NCBI RefSeq assembly: GCF_937859865.1
Contig: NZ_CALMAT010000108.1
Coordinates: 17,390 to 51,826, forward strand
Source of the DNA: an uncultured Mucilaginibacter sp.
GTDB lineage: Bacteria > Bacteroidota > Bacteroidia > Sphingobacteriales > Sphingobacteriaceae
Length of the DNA stretch: 34,437 bases
Direction: 5' to 3'
The notes under the pieces are model-generated. The model saw only the letters and a program-made list of their open reading frames with translations, had not been told where the DNA came from and did not search any database. Position numbers and translations under genes: made by a program. Below are positions 10,797 to 30,249 of the stretch, piece by piece. The stretch's first letter is position 1. Each line of letters begins with the position of its first letter.

Positions 10797-10819
10797 GCTA
10801 TTTTAATTTTATGTGCATA

Positions 10820-10855
10820 AAAGAAGCATCTGCCTGAAAAGGCAGGTGCTTCTTT
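10820..10855 (+). terminator. Intrinsic terminator after the YtxH gene
   Basis: A 16-bp stem (10820-10835 with 10840-10855, one T-G wobble) closed by a GAAA tetraloop and followed by GTTTTAG. The lower stem, AAAGAAGCA with TGCTTCTTT, is built from the core of the window-wide motif; the upper stem TCTGCCT/AGGCAGG is unrelated to it. Confidence 0.9.
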
Positions 10856-11300
10856 GTTTTAGTTAAAACTATGACGCTTAATGTTAAAGCAATCAGTATC
10901 GTTTTAAATTTATTGATTACTTAATTTGAAACTTTCAAAAGTGTTTAATGCGCTAAAACAAGTTGTATTGATTGAAAATAAGTTGCCAATAGTTAAGTAT
11001 TGTTATCCAAGTTAAAGCTTTTTATGTAAAGCAAAAATTAGATAGACGGTCAAATCCAAACCAACTTTTTAAAAATGCAAACTTGTGTTTCGGCTTCTAA
11101 TTGTTGCATCCAAAATAACACAAAGCCTGAAGTTGTTAAAAGCGCAATTACACGTAAAAGATAAAGGTGGTTTTACGTAAAAATACCTTTTTAGCAGAGA
11201 TCAATTTTATCAATGCTTTTTTTAGCACATATAAATTAGTATGGCAAGGTTAGTTTTTTGAAAAAAAATCCAATGATTTTTAGGGGATAAAGGAAGCATC
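10856..11300. other. AT-rich gap with no recognisable gene
   Basis: About 445 bp between the YtxH terminator and the tRNA-His terminator. I find no credible ORF. A small hairpin occurs at 11163-11192 (AAAGGT and ACCTTT arms around TTTTACGTAAAA, followed by TTTA), which might terminate an unrecognised transcript. A decayed motif copy, GATAAAGGAAGCATC, lies near 11286-11300. Otherwise nothing is seen. Confidence 0.5.
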
Positions 11301-16564: not shown

Positions 16565-19162
16565 ATGGCCAACTATATGCTGACTAACGAAACTTACCGT
16601 AAAAACTTGGAAGGCAGAGTCTCAATTAAAGGAAAATTTTTATACGTTAATAAGCAAAAGCTTTATATAAAAGGGGTTACCTACGGCACTTTTGCACCTA
16701 CCGTTGACGGTTTTCAATATCCGCAAAAGTTAACTATAGAAAAAGATTTTAGTTTGATGGCGCAAAACGGTATCACTTGTGTTAGAACTTACACCGTACC
16801 GCCTAAATATTTATTAGATATTGCTTTGCAATATAATTTAAAAGTAATGGTAGGCCTGCCTTGGGAACAGCATATTACTTTTTTAGATACAGAAGAACGT
16901 AAAAAAGATATTGTAAAAAGAGTAAAAGAAGGAGCCGCAGCTTGCGGTCAACATCCGGCTATTTTATGCTTTGCTATCGGTAATGAAATTCCTGCTCCTA
17001 TTGTTAGATGGTACGGCAAGCAAAAGATTGAAGACTTTCTAAAACAGTTATACAAAGCAGTTAAAGCGACGGATCCCGAATGCTTAGTAACTTATGTTAA
17101 TTTCCCTACTACTGAATATCTTGACTTAAGTTTCCTTGATTTTGATTGTTTTAATGTGTACTTGGAAACACCAGAAAAATTAGGCAGCTATATTTCCAGG
17201 TTGCACAATCTTTCTGGCGACCGGCCTTTGGTGTTGGCAGAAATTGGGTTAGACAGTATTCGAAACGGCGAAGCGTTACAGGCGGAAACCCTAAAATGGC
17301 AGATAAAAACAGTATTTGCCAAAGGCTGTGCCGGGATGTTTGTTTTTGCGTGGACTGACGAGTGGTGGCGTGGAGGATCAAGCATTGATGATTGGGATTT
17401 TGGAATAGTTGATAGAGAAAGAAGGTCTAAACCAGCGCTTTCGGCTGTAAGAGAAACCATGGCTGAAGTTCCTTTTTCTAACGAAAACATGCCGCTTCCC
17501 TTAATTTCTGTTGTAGTTTGCTCGTTTAACGGCGCTTCTACTATTAAAGAGTGCATGGAAGGTTTACAAAAATTAAATTATCCTGCTTATGAAGTGATTG
17601 TAGTTAATGATGGATCAACAGATAATTTAGCTGAAATTGTAAAGGAATACCCCGTAAAGCTTATTAATACAGTTAATTGTGGATTAAGCAGTGCCAGAAA
17701 TACAGGTTCGCACCAAGCAAACGGCGAAATTATTGCTTACATAGATGATGACGCTTATCCGGATCCTCACTGGTTAAATTATTTAGCTTATGCATTTTTA
17801 GATTCCAATCATGCTGGTATTGGCGGCCCCAATATTGCGCCTGCTGATGATGGTCCTATTGCAAAGTGCGTAGCTAATGCTCCTGGCGGCCCTGTACATG
17901 TGTTAATAACCGATGAAATAGCAGAACATATTCCGGGCTGCAACATGGCTTTTAAAAAAGATGTATTATTAGCAGTAGGCGGATTTGATAATATTTATCG
18001 AGCAGCAGGAGACGATGTAGATATTTGCTGGAAAATACAAAAAGCGGGGTTTACAATCGGTTTTCATCCGTCGGCCGTTGTCTGGCATCACCGCCGAAAC
18101 TCGTTTAAAGCTTATTGGAAACAACAAAAAGGCTATGGCAAGGCAGAAGCCTTATTGGAAGATAAATGGCCTGAAAAATATAACCAATTTGGGCACGTAG
18201 CCTGGTCTGGCCGTATTTATGGTAATGGTTTTACCATGCCTATAAACTTAAAAAAGGGTAAAGTTTTTTACGGTAGCTGGGGTAGTGCATTATTTCAATC
18301 AGTTTATCAGCCTGCTCATGGTTTCCTTAATGCTATTCCATTAATGCCAGAATGGTACTTATTTTCTGCATTGCTTGCTTTTTTTGCATCGTTGGGTTTT
18401 TTATGGGCGCCATTATTATGGATCTGGCCAATTTTTGTTTTATCCATCATCATTGTATTTGTGCAGGCCATAATTAGTGCGTCAGAAAATGTATCTGATC
18501 AATTAGCACAATCAAGAAATTATAAACACACAGCACTCATTACATTGCTACACTTGCTTCAGCCAATGGCGAGGCTGTATGGAAGACTTAAACACGGACT
18601 TAGGCCATGGCGAGAAATTAACATCGTTTCTAATATGAAATTTGCTTTTATTTTGAATCCACAAATATTAACACTTTGGTCTGAAGAATGGATTGCCGCT
18701 GAAGTTTGGTTAGAGCGCATCGAAAAAGAACTCATTAATTTAAAAACAAGAGTACAGCGAGGAAACAACTTTGATCGCTGGGATTTACAAGCACGCAATA
18801 GTATGTTTTCTACAAGCAGAGGACTGCTTGTAATTGAAGAACACGGTGCCGGTAAACAATTGCTACGGTTTAAAATATGGCCTTCGATTCCGAAAATAGT
18901 TATTGTAGCAGTTGTTACGCTAACTATTATAGCTGTTTTTGCGGCAATCAATCATGCAGTAACCGTTTCTGTTATACTTAGTATCATCGTACTTCTTATT
19001 GCGGCAGAATATTTTAAAGATTCAGCCAGTACGATGTATGATTTATACACTGCATTTACTGGACTTGAGAAAAGTGAAACGCAAAGCGACAGCATATTGC
19101 AATTTGCTGAAGACATTGATGAAAAAAACCTGGTGGTGGAAGAAAATGTAACTTCCAAATAG
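16565..19162 (+). CDS. Membrane glycosyltransferase GT2 with N-terminal glycoside-hydrolase-like TIM barrel
   Basis: 865 residues with three parts. Residues ~10-300 look like a clan GH-A barrel (GH2/GH5-like): KGVTYGTFAP, then FAIGNE with candidate acid/base E141 and LVLAEIG with candidate nucleophile E226, ending FAWTDEWWRGG. Residues ~310-570 are a GT2 domain: ISVVVCSFNGASTIKECM, YIDDDAYPDPHW (DxD-type), CNMAFKK and GDDVDICWKIQKAG. The rest holds a hydrophobic stretch at ~595-640 (probably two or more helices) and a pair at ~777-820, with a soluble stretch between. It probably builds a surface glycan at the inner membrane, and the barrel may trim or bind it. Both catalytic Glu are present, so hydrolysis or transglycosylation is possible. 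First gene of a five-gene AT-richer locus. Confidence 0.85.
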   Translation: MANYMLTNETYRKNLEGRVSIKGKFLYVNKQKLYIKGVTYGTFAPTVDGFQYPQKLTIEKDFSLMAQNGITCVRTYTVPPKYLLDIALQYNLKVMVGLPWEQHITFLDTEERKKDIVKRVKEGAAACGQHPAILCFAIGNEIPAPIVRWYGKQKIEDFLKQLYKAVKATDPECLVTYVNFPTTEYLDLSFLDFDCFNVYLETPEKLGSYISRLHNLSGDRPLVLAEIGLDSIRNGEALQAETLKWQIKTVFAKGCAGMFVFAWTDEWWRGGSSIDDWDFGIVDRERRSKPALSAVRETMAEVPFSNENMPLPLISVVVCSFNGASTIKECMEGLQKLNYPAYEVIVVNDGSTDNLAEIVKEYPVKLINTVNCGLSSARNTGSHQANGEIIAYIDDDAYPDPHWLNYLAYAFLDSNHAGIGGPNIAPADDGPIAKCVANAPGGPVHVLITDEIAEHIPGCNMAFKKDVLLAVGGFDNIYRAAGDDVDICWKIQKAGFTIGFHPSAVVWHHRRNSFKAYWKQQKGYGKAEALLEDKWPEKYNQFGHVAWSGRIYGNGFTMPINLKKGKVFYGSWGSALFQSVYQPAHGFLNAIPLMPEWYLFSALLAFFASLGFLWAPLLWIWPIFVLSIIIVFVQAIISASENVSDQLAQSRNYKHTALITLLHLLQPMARLYGRLKHGLRPWREINIVSNMKFAFILNPQILTLWSEEWIAAEVWLERIEKELINLKTRVQRGNNFDRWDLQARNSMFSTSRGLLVIEEHGAGKQLLRFKIWPSIPKIVIVAVVTLTIIAVFAAINHAVTVSVILSIIVLLIAAEYFKDSASTMYDLYTAFTGLEKSETQSDSILQFAEDIDEKNLVVEENVTSK

Positions 19163-19195
19163 TTTATCATGTATTAATTTTACATCTTTTTATAA

Positions 19196-19356
19196 GAGCC
19201 TGTTTAAATTTATACAAGAAAAAACCTTAATGCTTCTTTTACCCTATAAAAATTGGTGTTTGTATCAACCTAAACAAAACAAAACCCAATTCCACATCAA
19301 TTTTTATAGGGTAAAAGAAGCATCGAAACCTTAACAAGTAAATTTTAAACAGGCGC
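19196..19356. repeat. Nested inverted-repeat structure with a 9-bp direct repeat
   Basis: Inner element 19230-19323: two 26-bp perfect inverted arms (ATGCTTCTTTTACC, then CTATAAAAATTG) around a 42-bp centre. It is flanked by the direct repeat AAACCTTAA at 19222-19230 and 19326-19334. Outside that is a second inverted repeat, GCCTGTTTAAATTTA (19198-19212) and TAAATTTTAAACAGGC (19339-19354), with one bulged A. Removing the inner element and one 9-mer leaves an ordinary hairpin with a ~23-base loop. It lies between the GT2 fusion and the ABC exporter. Confidence 0.85.
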
Positions 19357-19410
19357 TAAAACTAAATTGCATATGGACAAACAACCTCAAAAACAAAAAT
19401 ATTAAAATTT

Positions 19411-21207
19411 ATGCCAGCAGCTTCCGGCGTTTATGCCAGACTTTTTCATTATATATTGCAATATAAAACAAAGCTGGTATTGGTTGCCCTCCTATCTTTG
19501 ATAGGGGTCGCTTTCGAAATCGTTAAACCCCTTCCAATAAAAATTATAGTTGATAACGTTTTATCAAACCACGCTTTACCTGCTATTTTTAACCGGCTTT
19601 TTAATCATGCTGCCATTTTGCAAAACAAACAGCAGTTACTATTATTATCTATTACTTCGTTAATTCTAATTACAATCGGCAGCGCCATTATATCTTTAGT
19701 GGTTTTTAACTATACGGTTAATCTTTCTCAGCGCTTGGTTTACGATCTTTCCGTAGATTTTTTTAGTAAATTACAGAAGCTATCCTTATCATTTTACAAT
19801 AAAAACCAGGTTGGTGATTTGTTGCAGCGTATGAACGGTGATGTTTTTATTGTTTACTTCCTGGTTGCGCAAATCTTACTGCCGTCTATCACCTCACTTG
19901 TTTGCTTAATAGGTATGTTTTACATCATGGCTAAAATAGATTTGATGTTGGCATTAGTCGCGTTTGCAGTAGTTCCGTTGCTTGGGTTGATACTTGTTTT
20001 TTACGCCAAACCCATGAATGATACTACGATGGATCAATACAACAAACAGGGCGCCCTTTCGGCATTTGTGCAGCAAAGCTTAACCTCCATGAAAATTATT
20101 CAGGCTTTTGGCCGCGAATCATTTATGTACCAAAAATTAATTGTGCATGCAGAAGAGTTTAGCAGAGCATTTAAAGTAGCCAATACTGTTTCTATCACCT
20201 TTAATCAACTATCCTATCTCGTTACAGGTATTGCTTCTGCAGTTGTAATTGGTATTGGTGGTTACCGCGTTTTAAACGGTATACTATCAACTGGTGATTT
20301 ATTTATATTCCTGGGATATATTACTGCTTTGTACGGACCGGTTAATTCTTTATCCACAGCAATTGGTACAGCAGTTACGATTGGAGCAAGAGGGAAACGT
20401 ATTTTTGATATTATAGATTCGGATGAAGTTGTACAAGAAAAGCATGATTCAGTATCGTTAATTATGCCAAAAGGAGCAGTAGAATTTAGTAATGTAACCT
20501 TTGGTTATGGCAATCCGGTTACTGCTGCTCCCGTTTTAAAAAATGTTTCTTTTAAGGTTGCTCCCGGTCAAATCGTTGCCATCGTTGGCTCAACCGGGGC
20601 TGGTAAAACTTCCATAATTTCCCTTCTTTCCCGTTTTTACGACCCTTGGGAAGGAGTTATCAGAATGGATGGAATTGATATTAAGAGCTTGAAGTTGCAT
20701 TCACTTCGGCAAAATATTTCTATTGTTATGCAAGATGCTTTTTTATTTCCGATGACCATCGGTGAAAATATTGCTTTTGGTAATCCGGATGCTTCTTTTA
20801 CCGAGGTAATTGAAGCGGCAAAAGCAGCACAGGCACATGATTTTATTGTTAAATTACCTCAAGGGTATGATACCATGATTAGTGAGGCTGGCGCTTCGCT
20901 TTCCGGTGGCCAGCGGCAAAGGATTTCTATTGCCAGAGCTTTTTTAAAACGTGCACCGATGATGATTTTAGATGAACCGACTTCCGCTGTAGATGCACTT
21001 ACGGAAGCAAGGATATTTAAAGCACTAAATCAGTTTTCAAAAGGAAAAACAGTGTTTCTGATTTCACATCGCTTATCTACCTTAAAACATGCTGATTTAA
21101 TCATCACTATAAAAGATGGTTATGTGGCAGAACAGGGAACGCACCAAAGCTTGTTGGAGGCCGATGATGTTTATGCCAGTTTGTACAAGCATCAACACAT
21201 TACTTAA
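19411..21207 (+). CDS. ABC exporter, fused permease and ATPase (MsbA/multidrug type)
   Basis: 598 residues: six predicted membrane helices over ~1-300, then one ATPase domain. Walker A VGSTGAGKTS near 392, Q-loop in ISIVMQDAFLFP, signature LSGGQRQRIS near 497, Walker B MMILDEPTSAVDA near 517, and the switch His in LISHRLSTL. As a half transporter it should form a homodimer and export a lipid-linked or amphipathic substrate. Its position right after the GT2 fusion and before acyltransferases suggests a glycan or glycolipid, which is inference. A motif copy encodes NPDASFTEVI at 20789, in a variable surface stretch after the Q-loop. Confidence 0.93.
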   Translation: MPAASGVYARLFHYILQYKTKLVLVALLSLIGVAFEIVKPLPIKIIVDNVLSNHALPAIFNRLFNHAAILQNKQQLLLLSITSLILITIGSAIISLVVFNYTVNLSQRLVYDLSVDFFSKLQKLSLSFYNKNQVGDLLQRMNGDVFIVYFLVAQILLPSITSLVCLIGMFYIMAKIDLMLALVAFAVVPLLGLILVFYAKPMNDTTMDQYNKQGALSAFVQQSLTSMKIIQAFGRESFMYQKLIVHAEEFSRAFKVANTVSITFNQLSYLVTGIASAVVIGIGGYRVLNGILSTGDLFIFLGYITALYGPVNSLSTAIGTAVTIGARGKRIFDIIDSDEVVQEKHDSVSLIMPKGAVEFSNVTFGYGNPVTAAPVLKNVSFKVAPGQIVAIVGSTGAGKTSIISLLSRFYDPWEGVIRMDGIDIKSLKLHSLRQNISIVMQDAFLFPMTIGENIAFGNPDASFTEVIEAAKAAQAHDFIVKLPQGYDTMISEAGASLSGGQRQRISIARAFLKRAPMMILDEPTSAVDALTEARIFKALNQFSKGKTVFLISHRLSTLKHADLIITIKDGYVAEQGTHQSLLEADDVYASLYKHQHIT

Positions 21208-25034: not shown

Positions 25035-25036
25035 AA

Positions 25037-25059
25037 TTTTAGGTTGATAAAAGAAGCAT
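25037..25059 (-). repeat. Dispersed motif copy (A-type) before thiD
   Basis: On the minus strand ATGCTTCTTTTATC then AACCTAAAA. It ends 3 bp before the preferred thiD GTG. Together with the copy at 25167-25191 in the same orientation it brackets the palindrome 25071-25157. Confidence 0.85.
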
Positions 25060-25070
25060 GAACATTTTTT

Positions 25071-25157
25071 GTCATCTCGACCAACGGGAGAGATCTTTTT
25101 CAAAGCTGGATAAGATTGAATTATTGAAAGAAGATTTCTCCTGTTGGTCGAAATGAC
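25071..25157. repeat. Palindromic repeat of the GTCATTTCGACC family
   Basis: Left arm GTCATCTCGACCAACGGGAG + AGATCTT (25071-25097) and right arm AAGATTTCTCC + TGTTGGTCGAAATGAC (25131-25157) are inverted repeats of 27 bp with three differences, each of which leaves a G-U pair in RNA. The centre is ~33 bp. Similar sequences are common as dispersed palindromes between genes in Pedobacter-like genomes (from memory). It sits inside the thiF-thiD gap of an operon, so it may modulate thiD-tenA expression. Confidence 0.8.
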
Positions 25158-25166
25158 AGCATGATA

Positions 25167-25191
25167 AAATTTTGGTTGATAAAAGAAGCAT
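25167..25191 (-). repeat. Dispersed motif copy (A-type) on the thiF stop codon
   Basis: On the minus strand ATGCTTCTTTTATC then AACCAAAATTT. Its first base (25191) is the last base of the thiF TAA stop. Confidence 0.85.
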
Positions 25192-29700: not shown

Positions 29701-29740
29701 AGGGAAAAAGCAAAACAGCATATTCGCTTTTACTTTTCCC
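29701..29740 (-). promoter_or_regulatory. Possible expression-platform hairpin of the TPP riboswitch
   Basis: On the minus strand GGGAAAAGTAAAAGC can pair with GCTGTTTTGCTTTTTCCC (bulged, ~13 pairs). Its 5' arm reuses the 3' side of the aptamer P1 stem, so the two are mutually exclusive. No clear U run follows, so translational or Rho-linked control is as likely as termination. Confidence 0.45.
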
Positions 29741-29805
29741 TTCGGCAATATCAGCTGCATCAGGTTCAAAGGGTATTATCTCAGTCCGAAGGACACCCCT
29801 AAAGT
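29732..29805 (-). promoter_or_regulatory. TPP riboswitch (THI element)
   Basis: On the minus strand: ACTTT, then AGGGGTGTCC with TTCGGACTGAGATAAT, ACCCTTTGAACCTGATGCAG, CTGATATTGCCGAAGGG and AAAAGT. The conserved CUGAGA and ACCUGAU bulges and the closing P1 (ACTTT/AAAGT) are all present. It lies in the leader of thiS and should repress the thi operon when thiamine pyrophosphate is abundant. Confidence 0.95.
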
Positions 29806-30249
29806 TGCAGTAAAGCTAAAAGAAAAAATTTATAATCCTGCTTTATTTTAAGAGTCTTTTTAAAATTGTACAATAGCCTTCAATATTCTCAGGATTGATC
29901 GTAATGCTTCTTTTACCGTATAAAAATTGGTGCTTGTATCCATTAAAATAAAACTAATGTTTGCCGGTTTTTAGGTGATAAAAGAAGTATTTGGCCATGC
30001 CGTACTGTACATTAAACTTTACACCCCAAATTACCTTTTTGTTGTTATTTCAGTTAAAGCCAGTAATACGGTTTACAACCTCTCTTTTTTCCCCAAAAAA
30101 CATACTTGCCTTATTGTTTTTTTACTTTTTCATCAAATTTTTACCTTTATTTATGAAATTAGCAACATTTCTTGTAACTATGGGAATTATTTTCAACTAT
30201 ATTTTTTGGGAATAATCATTAGCAAACTTGTTAAAAACCTAAAATTAAT
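29806..30249. other. Divergent gap between the thi operon and glnN
   Basis: About 440 bp, AT-rich. It contains the promoter region of the thi operon, the inverted-repeat element at 29904-29990, and then a long glnN upstream region in which I see no clear promoter box. Short ORFs overlapping 29975-30310 have no family-like content and are not called. Confidence 0.5.
29904..29990. repeat. Second full-length, diverged copy of the 19230 inverted-repeat element
   Basis: Left end ATGCTTCTTTTACC then GTATAAAAATTGGTG, right end TTTTTAGGTGATAAAAGAAGTAT. The interior is homologous to the 19230 copy: both continue TTGGTG(C/T)TTGTATC, then an A-rich stretch ending AAAC. The arms here match each other only imperfectly, about 20 of 27 positions. 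87 bp against 94 bp. No flanking direct repeat is evident. Confidence 0.82.

Follow-up and report, generated by a model that had tools for sequence, protein, structure and literature searches.

Uptake sequences have been described for the Pasteurellaceae (USS) and the Neisseriaceae (DUS) (PMC7811141, PMC1939737), and the available text of one report gives 1,465 core copies for Haemophilus and 1,892 for Neisseria, with A/T tracts beside the USS core (PMC7811141). For Haemophilus influenzae, 1,471 perfect copies were counted against 764 singly mismatched ones, and the available part of that work holds that they originate by point mutation (PMC1939737). The DUS of Neisseria occur as inverted pairs at terminators and are missing from recently acquired genes; the same source, as far as its available sections go, argues that many of them arrive via recombination rather than point mutation (PMC2397512). 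In the Bacteroidota, candidate 10-bp words that are A-rich and enriched 2.6- to 7.8-fold have been reported for Riemerella and Flavobacterium, and R. columbina was found to take up its own DNA preferentially, so that an uptake preference within the phylum is not far-fetched, on the available portion of that study (PMC7965970). A literature search on uptake sequences and competence in Bacteroidota yielded this paper as the sole one relevant by its title, and its available text holds candidate words only. In a search with the string AAAAGAAGCAT, no occurrence was found in a paper that, judged by its title, deals with uptake.

Among mobile elements, close counterparts include the Correia elements (NEMIS) of the naturally competent genus Neisseria, which are MITEs of approximately 100-160 bp with inverted repeats of approximately 26 bp. 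These repeats are transposon ends and are not known to be DUS. MITEs of the IS5 family are likewise short, carry no transposase gene and have terminal inverted repeats and a 3-bp target duplication.

The window analysed here is the whole stretch of 34,437 nucleotides from an uncultured Mucilaginibacter sp. It contains a 161-bp unit at 19196-19356 that is a MITE with a 3-bp target duplication, as shown by its copies, its ends, the duplication itself and empty sites in M. arboris. The MITE, now correctly bounded, is the ordinary part of the locus; the new part is its cargo and the motif underlying it.

The 161-bp unit, its family and its relatives

The features of the locus are as follows, with the evidence for each in brackets.

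16565-19162, plus strand: upstream gene, Glyco_hydro_2_C (glycosyl hydrolase 2-type) followed by a family 2 glycosyltransferase (domain matches)
19193-19195, no strand: left target-site duplication TAA, 3 bp (identical outer 3-mers in 21 of 44 copies; letters checked)
19196-19356, plus strand: MITE as a whole, mobile unit of 161 bp (family in the same genome, near-full copies in M. arboris, empty sites)
19196-19211, plus strand: left terminal inverted repeat GAGCCTGTTTAAATTT (family ends; 14/16 and 13/16 bases shared with IS5-type ends)
19222-19230, plus strand: left AAACCTTAA, a rare variant and not a target duplication (left word in 1/44 copies, 2/40 in the other set)
19230-19259, minus strand: left extended uptake-sequence-like motif, 13-mer core at 19230-19242 (core matches RTAAAAGAAGCAT; extended logo)
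19260-19293, no strand: spacer separating both motif copies (variable across the family; inverted along with the arms in the sister copy C15:4150-4302)
19294-19323, plus strand: right extended uptake-sequence-like motif, 13-mer core at 19311-19323 (core match; extended logo)
19326-19334, plus strand: right AAACCTTAA, part of the element and commonest right-hand word of the family (word counts over copies)
19340-19356, minus strand: right terminal inverted repeat (family ends; letters checked)
19357-19359, no strand: right target-site duplication TAA, 3 bp (3-mer count in the family; letters checked)
19411-21207, plus strand: downstream gene, ABC transporter with membrane region and ATPase, with a motif copy at 20790 (domain matches)

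The palindrome at 19230-19323 with perfect 26-bp arms, the single AAACCTTAA on each side of it and the outer inverted repeat (GAGCCTGTTTAAATTT.. / ..AAATTTTAAACAGGCGC) were all confirmed as given in the preliminary description. Taken as 19230-19259 and 19294-19323, the inner arms show 97 % complementarity across 30 nt, with no mismatch in the outer 26; the left AAACCTTAA shares one base with the left inner arm, and two bases, CG, lie between the right arm and the right AAACCTTAA. The region folds well beyond chance (z = -9.8, 0/200 shuffles). When the whole window was compared with Rfam at the gathering threshold, a TPP riboswitch and a tRNA were the sole matches, and none was obtained at the 161-bp element. 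The riboswitch, at 29720-29810 on the minus strand, adjoins an apparently degenerate MITE copy in which both motif cores are present (29840-29991). At 25035-25191, the extended motif is found twice in direct orientation, on either side of an inverted repeat, TGTCATCTCGACCAACGGGAGAGATC.. (25070-25158), in what seems to be a further repeat family.

When the 161 bp were compared with their own genome, 88 matches were obtained, both strands and partial matches included, and at approximately 39 separate places besides the window more than 100 bp were matched at 76-89 % identity. Near-full copies also occur in M. arboris. In an alignment of the best 41 of 57 pieces, outer arms, inner arms and spacer co-occur in most, some being truncated, which makes the outer hairpin the end of a repeated unit and not an older site that had been hit. 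A set of 44 distinct copies, taken from loci of this genome with a search pattern demanding both ends and both motif cores, was obtained from 93 starting rows after removal of double strands, overlapping loci and those loci that came from M. arboris. Its consensus runs GAGCCTGTTTAA..TTAAACAGGCTC. Equal 3-mers directly outside the ends were found in 21 of these copies against 8.7 expected (0/20,000 shuffles), 12 of them being TAA, 5 TTA and 4 others; among the 44, none of the other lengths (2-10) and offsets (-4 to 4) was conspicuous.

The preliminary description had taken the 9-bp direct repeat as the mark of transposition and the inner palindrome as an insertion into the loop of an older hairpin. 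Neither claim was upheld. Equal 9-mers flank the palindrome in 1 of the 44 copies, that of the window, and in 2 of 40 in the other set (40 of the 41 aligned copies yielded a 9-mer pair), the second being a sister copy; flanking repeats in other genomic copies are thus nearly lacking as regards the 9-mer and present as regards the 3-mer. On the right-hand side AAACCTTAA is the commonest word (3/44, tied with AAACCTTGA; 6/40 in the other set), whereas the commonest left-hand word is AAATGTTAA, from which the left AAACCTTAA, seldom seen on that side, differs in two bases. The 9-bp direct repeat is a coincidence, explained by chance. The inner and outer repeats travel together, and the best empty site lacks all 161 bp. 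What did hold is the broader proposal of a miniature element of transposon type, borne out by the family copies, the 3-bp duplication and the empty sites.

The sister copy, C15:4150-4302 (L019:1251-1403), has the same 9-mers and contains the inner 94 bp of the window in inverted orientation. Compared with the inverted window form, this inner part differs by two substitutions and one gap of 5 bases (alignment score 142, against 96 for the direct form). On the basis of this copy, the inner arms probably recombine and thereby flip the inside of the element.

The upstream GT2 fusion gene gave no more than partial matches in the 12 relatives searched, and empty sites were therefore assessed at other copies. 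Six of the 44 copies had both flanks in the M. arboris DNA examined, and in 4 of these 6 the joined flanks were spanned by an M. arboris match, one of them perfect; three short spanning matches elsewhere in M. arboris (41-56 bp; copies L003 and L118) were left out of the count. At the best site (C129:1531), ctttgctttaattaa, the unit and taaacaaat stand here against CTTTGCTTTAATTAAACAAAT in M. arboris, with a single TAA and nothing more, i.e., the entire 161 bp plus one TAA are absent. The junction of C6:41220 aligns gap-free with TAA counted once. Somewhat diverged and with gaps, the M. arboris site of C119:5980 is likewise empty, and at L116, a copy without equal 3-mers, the match spans the junction with 10 gaps. 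In the case of C3:53277, a diverged copy with both motif cores intact is located at the same M. arboris place. Empty sites in a relative, as had been proposed, thus exist in M. arboris at other members of the family, and what is missing at the best of them is the whole 161 bp and not the inner element alone.

A transposase with matching ends had also been proposed. In M. arboris, an IS5-type element of 855 bp (L277:1463-2317) has 13-bp perfect ends GAAACTGTTTAAA flanked on either side by TTA and contains two ORFs matching DUF4096 and DDE_Tnp_1, and the end of the MITE equals its end in 14/16 bases. An IS5-type element with DUF4096 and DDE_Tnp_1 on contig C174 of this genome has ends GAGGTTGTTTAAACTT, to which the MITE end is equal in 13/16; no clear 3-bp duplication was seen at its flanks. 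Among the transposase matches to PF13586 (this genome, 1) and PF01609 (three congeners, 16), there was no autonomous element with ends identical to those of the MITE. We read the MITE as a relative of these two elements, with an IS5-type transposase as its putative helper; among MITEs of the IS5 family it compares with those of the IS1031/IS427-like group. Directly beside the M. arboris element, at L277:1190-1420, many motif copies and inverted repeats are seen by eye.

Abundance, placement and conservation of the motif

The inner arms contain the 13-mer core RTAAAAGAAGCAT, of which there are 1,845 copies in this genome, as against one of the reversed control; two congeners have 1,657 and 939. 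In each of 57 other genomes 0-4 copies were counted. The 14-mer GRTAAAAGAAGCAT was surveyed in 301 genomes of the family, evenly drawn out of a larger group, with counts of 1479, 1357 and 711 in the genus and of no more than 4 in any of the 298 others. The 10-mer TAAAAGAAGC exceeds the expectation from base composition approximately 180-fold in 438 kb of this genome, where the top 10-mer count is 268, as compared with 25 and 14 in 200 kb each of two neighbouring genera. Another genus of the family (G008, L198-L207) has a different over-represented 10-mer, AACTAAAAAC, with 25 copies in 200 kb.

Copies with at most one mismatch number 337 in 438 kb of this genome and 255 in 397 kb of M. arboris, with a mean of approximately 1 for permuted controls. 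Perfect copies outnumber singly mismatched ones in both (202 vs 135 and 142 vs 113, respectively). The extended motif reads AYACYAAWTTTTxxSYG-RTAAAAGAAGYATY, and its exact 13-mer core is found about once per 2 kb in this genome. A second core, RTAAAAACAGYAT, is present in the stretches of G000 and G001 (M. arboris) in the same surroundings and with the same upstream A/T tract, and is perhaps a dialect of the motif.

Counted on either strand, the motif lies inside ORFs in 106 of 337 copies in this genome and in 118 of 255 in M. arboris, and coding copies favour certain frames, e.g., KEAS, ASFT and KRSI. When coding copies alone were aligned (n = 224), an A/T run was retained at -11 to -7, where 93 % of the bases are A or T as compared with 59-60 % at the margins of the aligned stretches, and G occupied position -1 in 71 %; a weaker downstream A/T patch is restricted to intergenic copies. 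The motif is denser between genes than within them, a difference to which the MITE-type pairs contribute, 37 head-to-head pairs being spaced 55-85 bp apart. Copies are spread more evenly than at random (CV 0.73 and 0.88 once clusters are merged).

Three of the 17 motif-free gaps longer than 6.5 kb were examined, without a control set, and correspond to two M. arboris regions, one of them at a contig start. Both are glycosyltransferase/flippase/Wzz loci by 10/16 and 10/13 of their large ORFs. Polysaccharide loci are a classic place for foreign DNA. The motif-poor surface-polysaccharide clusters of M. arboris, L227 and L237, each contain one motif copy in 20 kb.

Conservation within the element was assessed in 30 of 62 sites that had been found by the left outer repeat alone, the window copy included. 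In sites chosen in this way, the left 12-mer core ATGCTTCTTTTA was unsubstituted in 28/30 and the right motif core was present in 27/30 and exact in 26, whereas the right outer repeat was present in 24/30 and exact in 5. The cores, exact in most sites, are thus better kept than the end that is needed for transposition, exact in 5 of 24.

Possible roles of the element and its motif

Taking the two parts together, we consider it probable, with moderate confidence, that 19196-19356 is an IS5-type MITE hitchhiking with a pair of candidate uptake tags. An IS5-type transposase (DUF4096 plus DDE) encoded elsewhere would recognise the GAGCCTGTTTAAA ends and insert the MITE at 3-bp targets, mostly TAA or TTA; the identity of this helper is deduced from the likeness of the ends. 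The cargo is two inverted extended copies of the genus-specific motif, which, judging from its pattern in the genome, most probably acts as a DNA uptake sequence. Cells importing free DNA would prefer motif-bearing fragments, and such fragments would in this way be copied into the population. The same pattern suggests that the motif accumulates by substitution and is restored upon decay. A MITE with two tags would be taken up more readily and could seed new tags, and selection or drive on the tag may be what keeps the two cores while the rest of the element decays.

ComEC is present in all three congeners and in 15/17 genomes overall; of the 14 relatives outside the genus, none of them enriched in the motif, 12 have it as well. 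The T2SSE profile (pilus/T2SS assembly ATPase) gave no match in this genome and sub-threshold matches only in the two congeners; on this result, the uptake machine and its receptor would have to differ from the pilus type. We know of no uptake experiment in the genus Mucilaginibacter.

The motif could instead be a genome-wide site for a chromosome-organising or recombination protein (nucleoid, Chi-like or segregation), of which the MITE merely holds two, an alternative to be taken seriously that we nevertheless regard as unlikely. Abundance, even spread and conservation fit any such site, and the pilus ATPase that was not found also counts in its favour. Signals of the Chi and KOPS type have a strand bias along the replichore and sites of the matS and SlmA/Noc type are regional. 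The present motif showed no significant strand bias in 10/10 contigs longer than 50 kb (smallest p 0.067) and a density of 0.58-0.89 per kb across these contigs, which speaks against a site of this kind. Its scarcity in the two polysaccharide loci and its inverted pairs at convergent gene ends are moreover habits of the DUS, according to the available text of PMC2397512. Of 20 short tail-to-tail pairs (at most 30 bp apart), 10 are located between convergent genes, the background being 94 of 474 intergenic gaps; the pair at 10820-10855 (10804-10871) forms a 16-pair hairpin with a T-rich tail that is built from the motif itself and scores as a terminator.

These pairs also bear on a very unlikely explanation, in which the unit serves the preceding gene as a transcription terminator or mRNA 3' stabiliser. 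It is a strong hairpin that starts 33 bp past the upstream stop codon, as such a role would have it, yet no terminator-like site was found within the unit. The gene context of the 44 copies (24 tandem, 13 divergent, 5 convergent, 2 at edges; none inside the mechanically called ORFs) is much like ordinary intergenic space, and it is the tail-to-tail pairs that favour convergent genes; the MITE-spaced head-to-head pairs have no such preference (convergent in 5/35).

Since each MITE copy carries the motif twice, the motif might be considered mere debris of very many old MITE insertions. Comparison of coding copies with orthologs makes this highly improbable. Against two outgroup genera, 31 alignments over coding motifs were obtained, and 17/17 of those at 55 % identity or above (14 genes) were gap-free in the motif residues; among the 14 below 55 %, one (28 %) had a gap at the motif. 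Within the genus, the first 397 kb of M. arboris yielded one reciprocal ortholog match, and further M. arboris DNA was then added. The resulting comparison covers 14 of the 106 coding copies, mostly from two contigs, and 14/14 (11 genes) were gap-free; in 11/14 the motif has no more than one mismatch, where 3.6 would be expected on the basis of other windows in these genes (P = 4e-5). In these alignments, the motif appears to arise in place by substitution and not by insertion. In addition, MITE-spaced pairs account for 74 of 592 motif copies in two samples.

Spread as a REP/BIME-type repeat by a Y1 (RAYT-like) transposase is scarcely credible. The repeats are palindromic and intergenic and the genome has one Y1_Tnp gene, but the outer ends with their 3-bp duplication and IS5-type relatives, as well as the proportion of motif copies in ORFs given above for both genomes, those compared looking like substitutions, are at odds with it. 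This sole IS200-type Y1 transposase gene (L047:1327-1788) lies between what by eye appear to be genes for a sensor kinase and response regulators.

If the inner palindrome alone had jumped into an older hairpin loop and duplicated 9 bp there, two identical 9-mers close to the arms would be accounted for. The probability of this is negligible, since the inner and outer repeats are linked in the family, equal 9-mers are confined to the copies named above and the best empty site lacks 161 bp; in our view, the family alignment, together with the empty sites found for other copies, has already refuted it.

The preferred reading, a MITE hitchhiking with candidate uptake tags, can be carried one step further. 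A genus of the Bacteroidota may have independently evolved a further uptake-sequence system, without the pilus ATPase on which the known ones depend, and a transposon family may spread a captured head-to-head tag pair as a mobile uptake cassette that re-enters by transformation and seeds tags. For this fuller proposal, drawn from genome patterns, we see even chances.

Comparison with known systems

A strong candidate in the Bacteroidota, with a named strain, M. arboris HMF7410, would offer an independent replicate for the debate between molecular drive and self-recognition, and it points to a receptor and an uptake machine other than the usual pilus. The tag pair being the best-kept part of the MITE suggests a selfish element exploiting an uptake bias. 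A later paper reportedly describes an uptake sequence in Riemerella anatipestifer and was not found in the literature search; if it exists, the present candidate would not be a first for the phylum, and the motif and the MITE would still be new as far as is known.

The element resembles IS5-family MITEs in being short, in lacking a transposase gene, in its terminal inverted repeats and 3-bp duplication, and in the similar ends of IS5-type elements of the genus. It differs from them in its cargo, an inverted pair of uptake-sequence-like motifs that is better conserved than the transposon end. With the Correia elements it shares its MITE nature, a similar size and inverted repeats of approximately 26 bp; the difference is that the 26-bp inner arms are here the abundant motif itself. 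The candidate words of Riemerella and Flavobacterium are enriched 2.6- to 7.8-fold in the available text of their report, as compared with the approximately 180-fold of TAAAAGAAGC (PMC7965970).

The closest likeness is to the DUS of the Neisseriaceae and the USS of the Pasteurellaceae, which in the available parts of the sources are also hyper-abundant, lineage-specific cores (9-12 bp in those families) in coding and intergenic DNA with inverted pairs at terminators (PMC7811141, PMC1939737, PMC2397512). With the USS of H. influenzae, as documented in the available text, the motif further shares A/T tracts beside the core and singly mismatched copies that are rarer than perfect ones (PMC7811141, PMC1939737). 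It differs from both DUS and USS in its sequence, in belonging to the phylum Bacteroidota, in the lack of a T2SSE match over the cut-off and in being known from the genome pattern. It also differs in that some of its copies belong to a mobile element, where they form head-to-head pairs.
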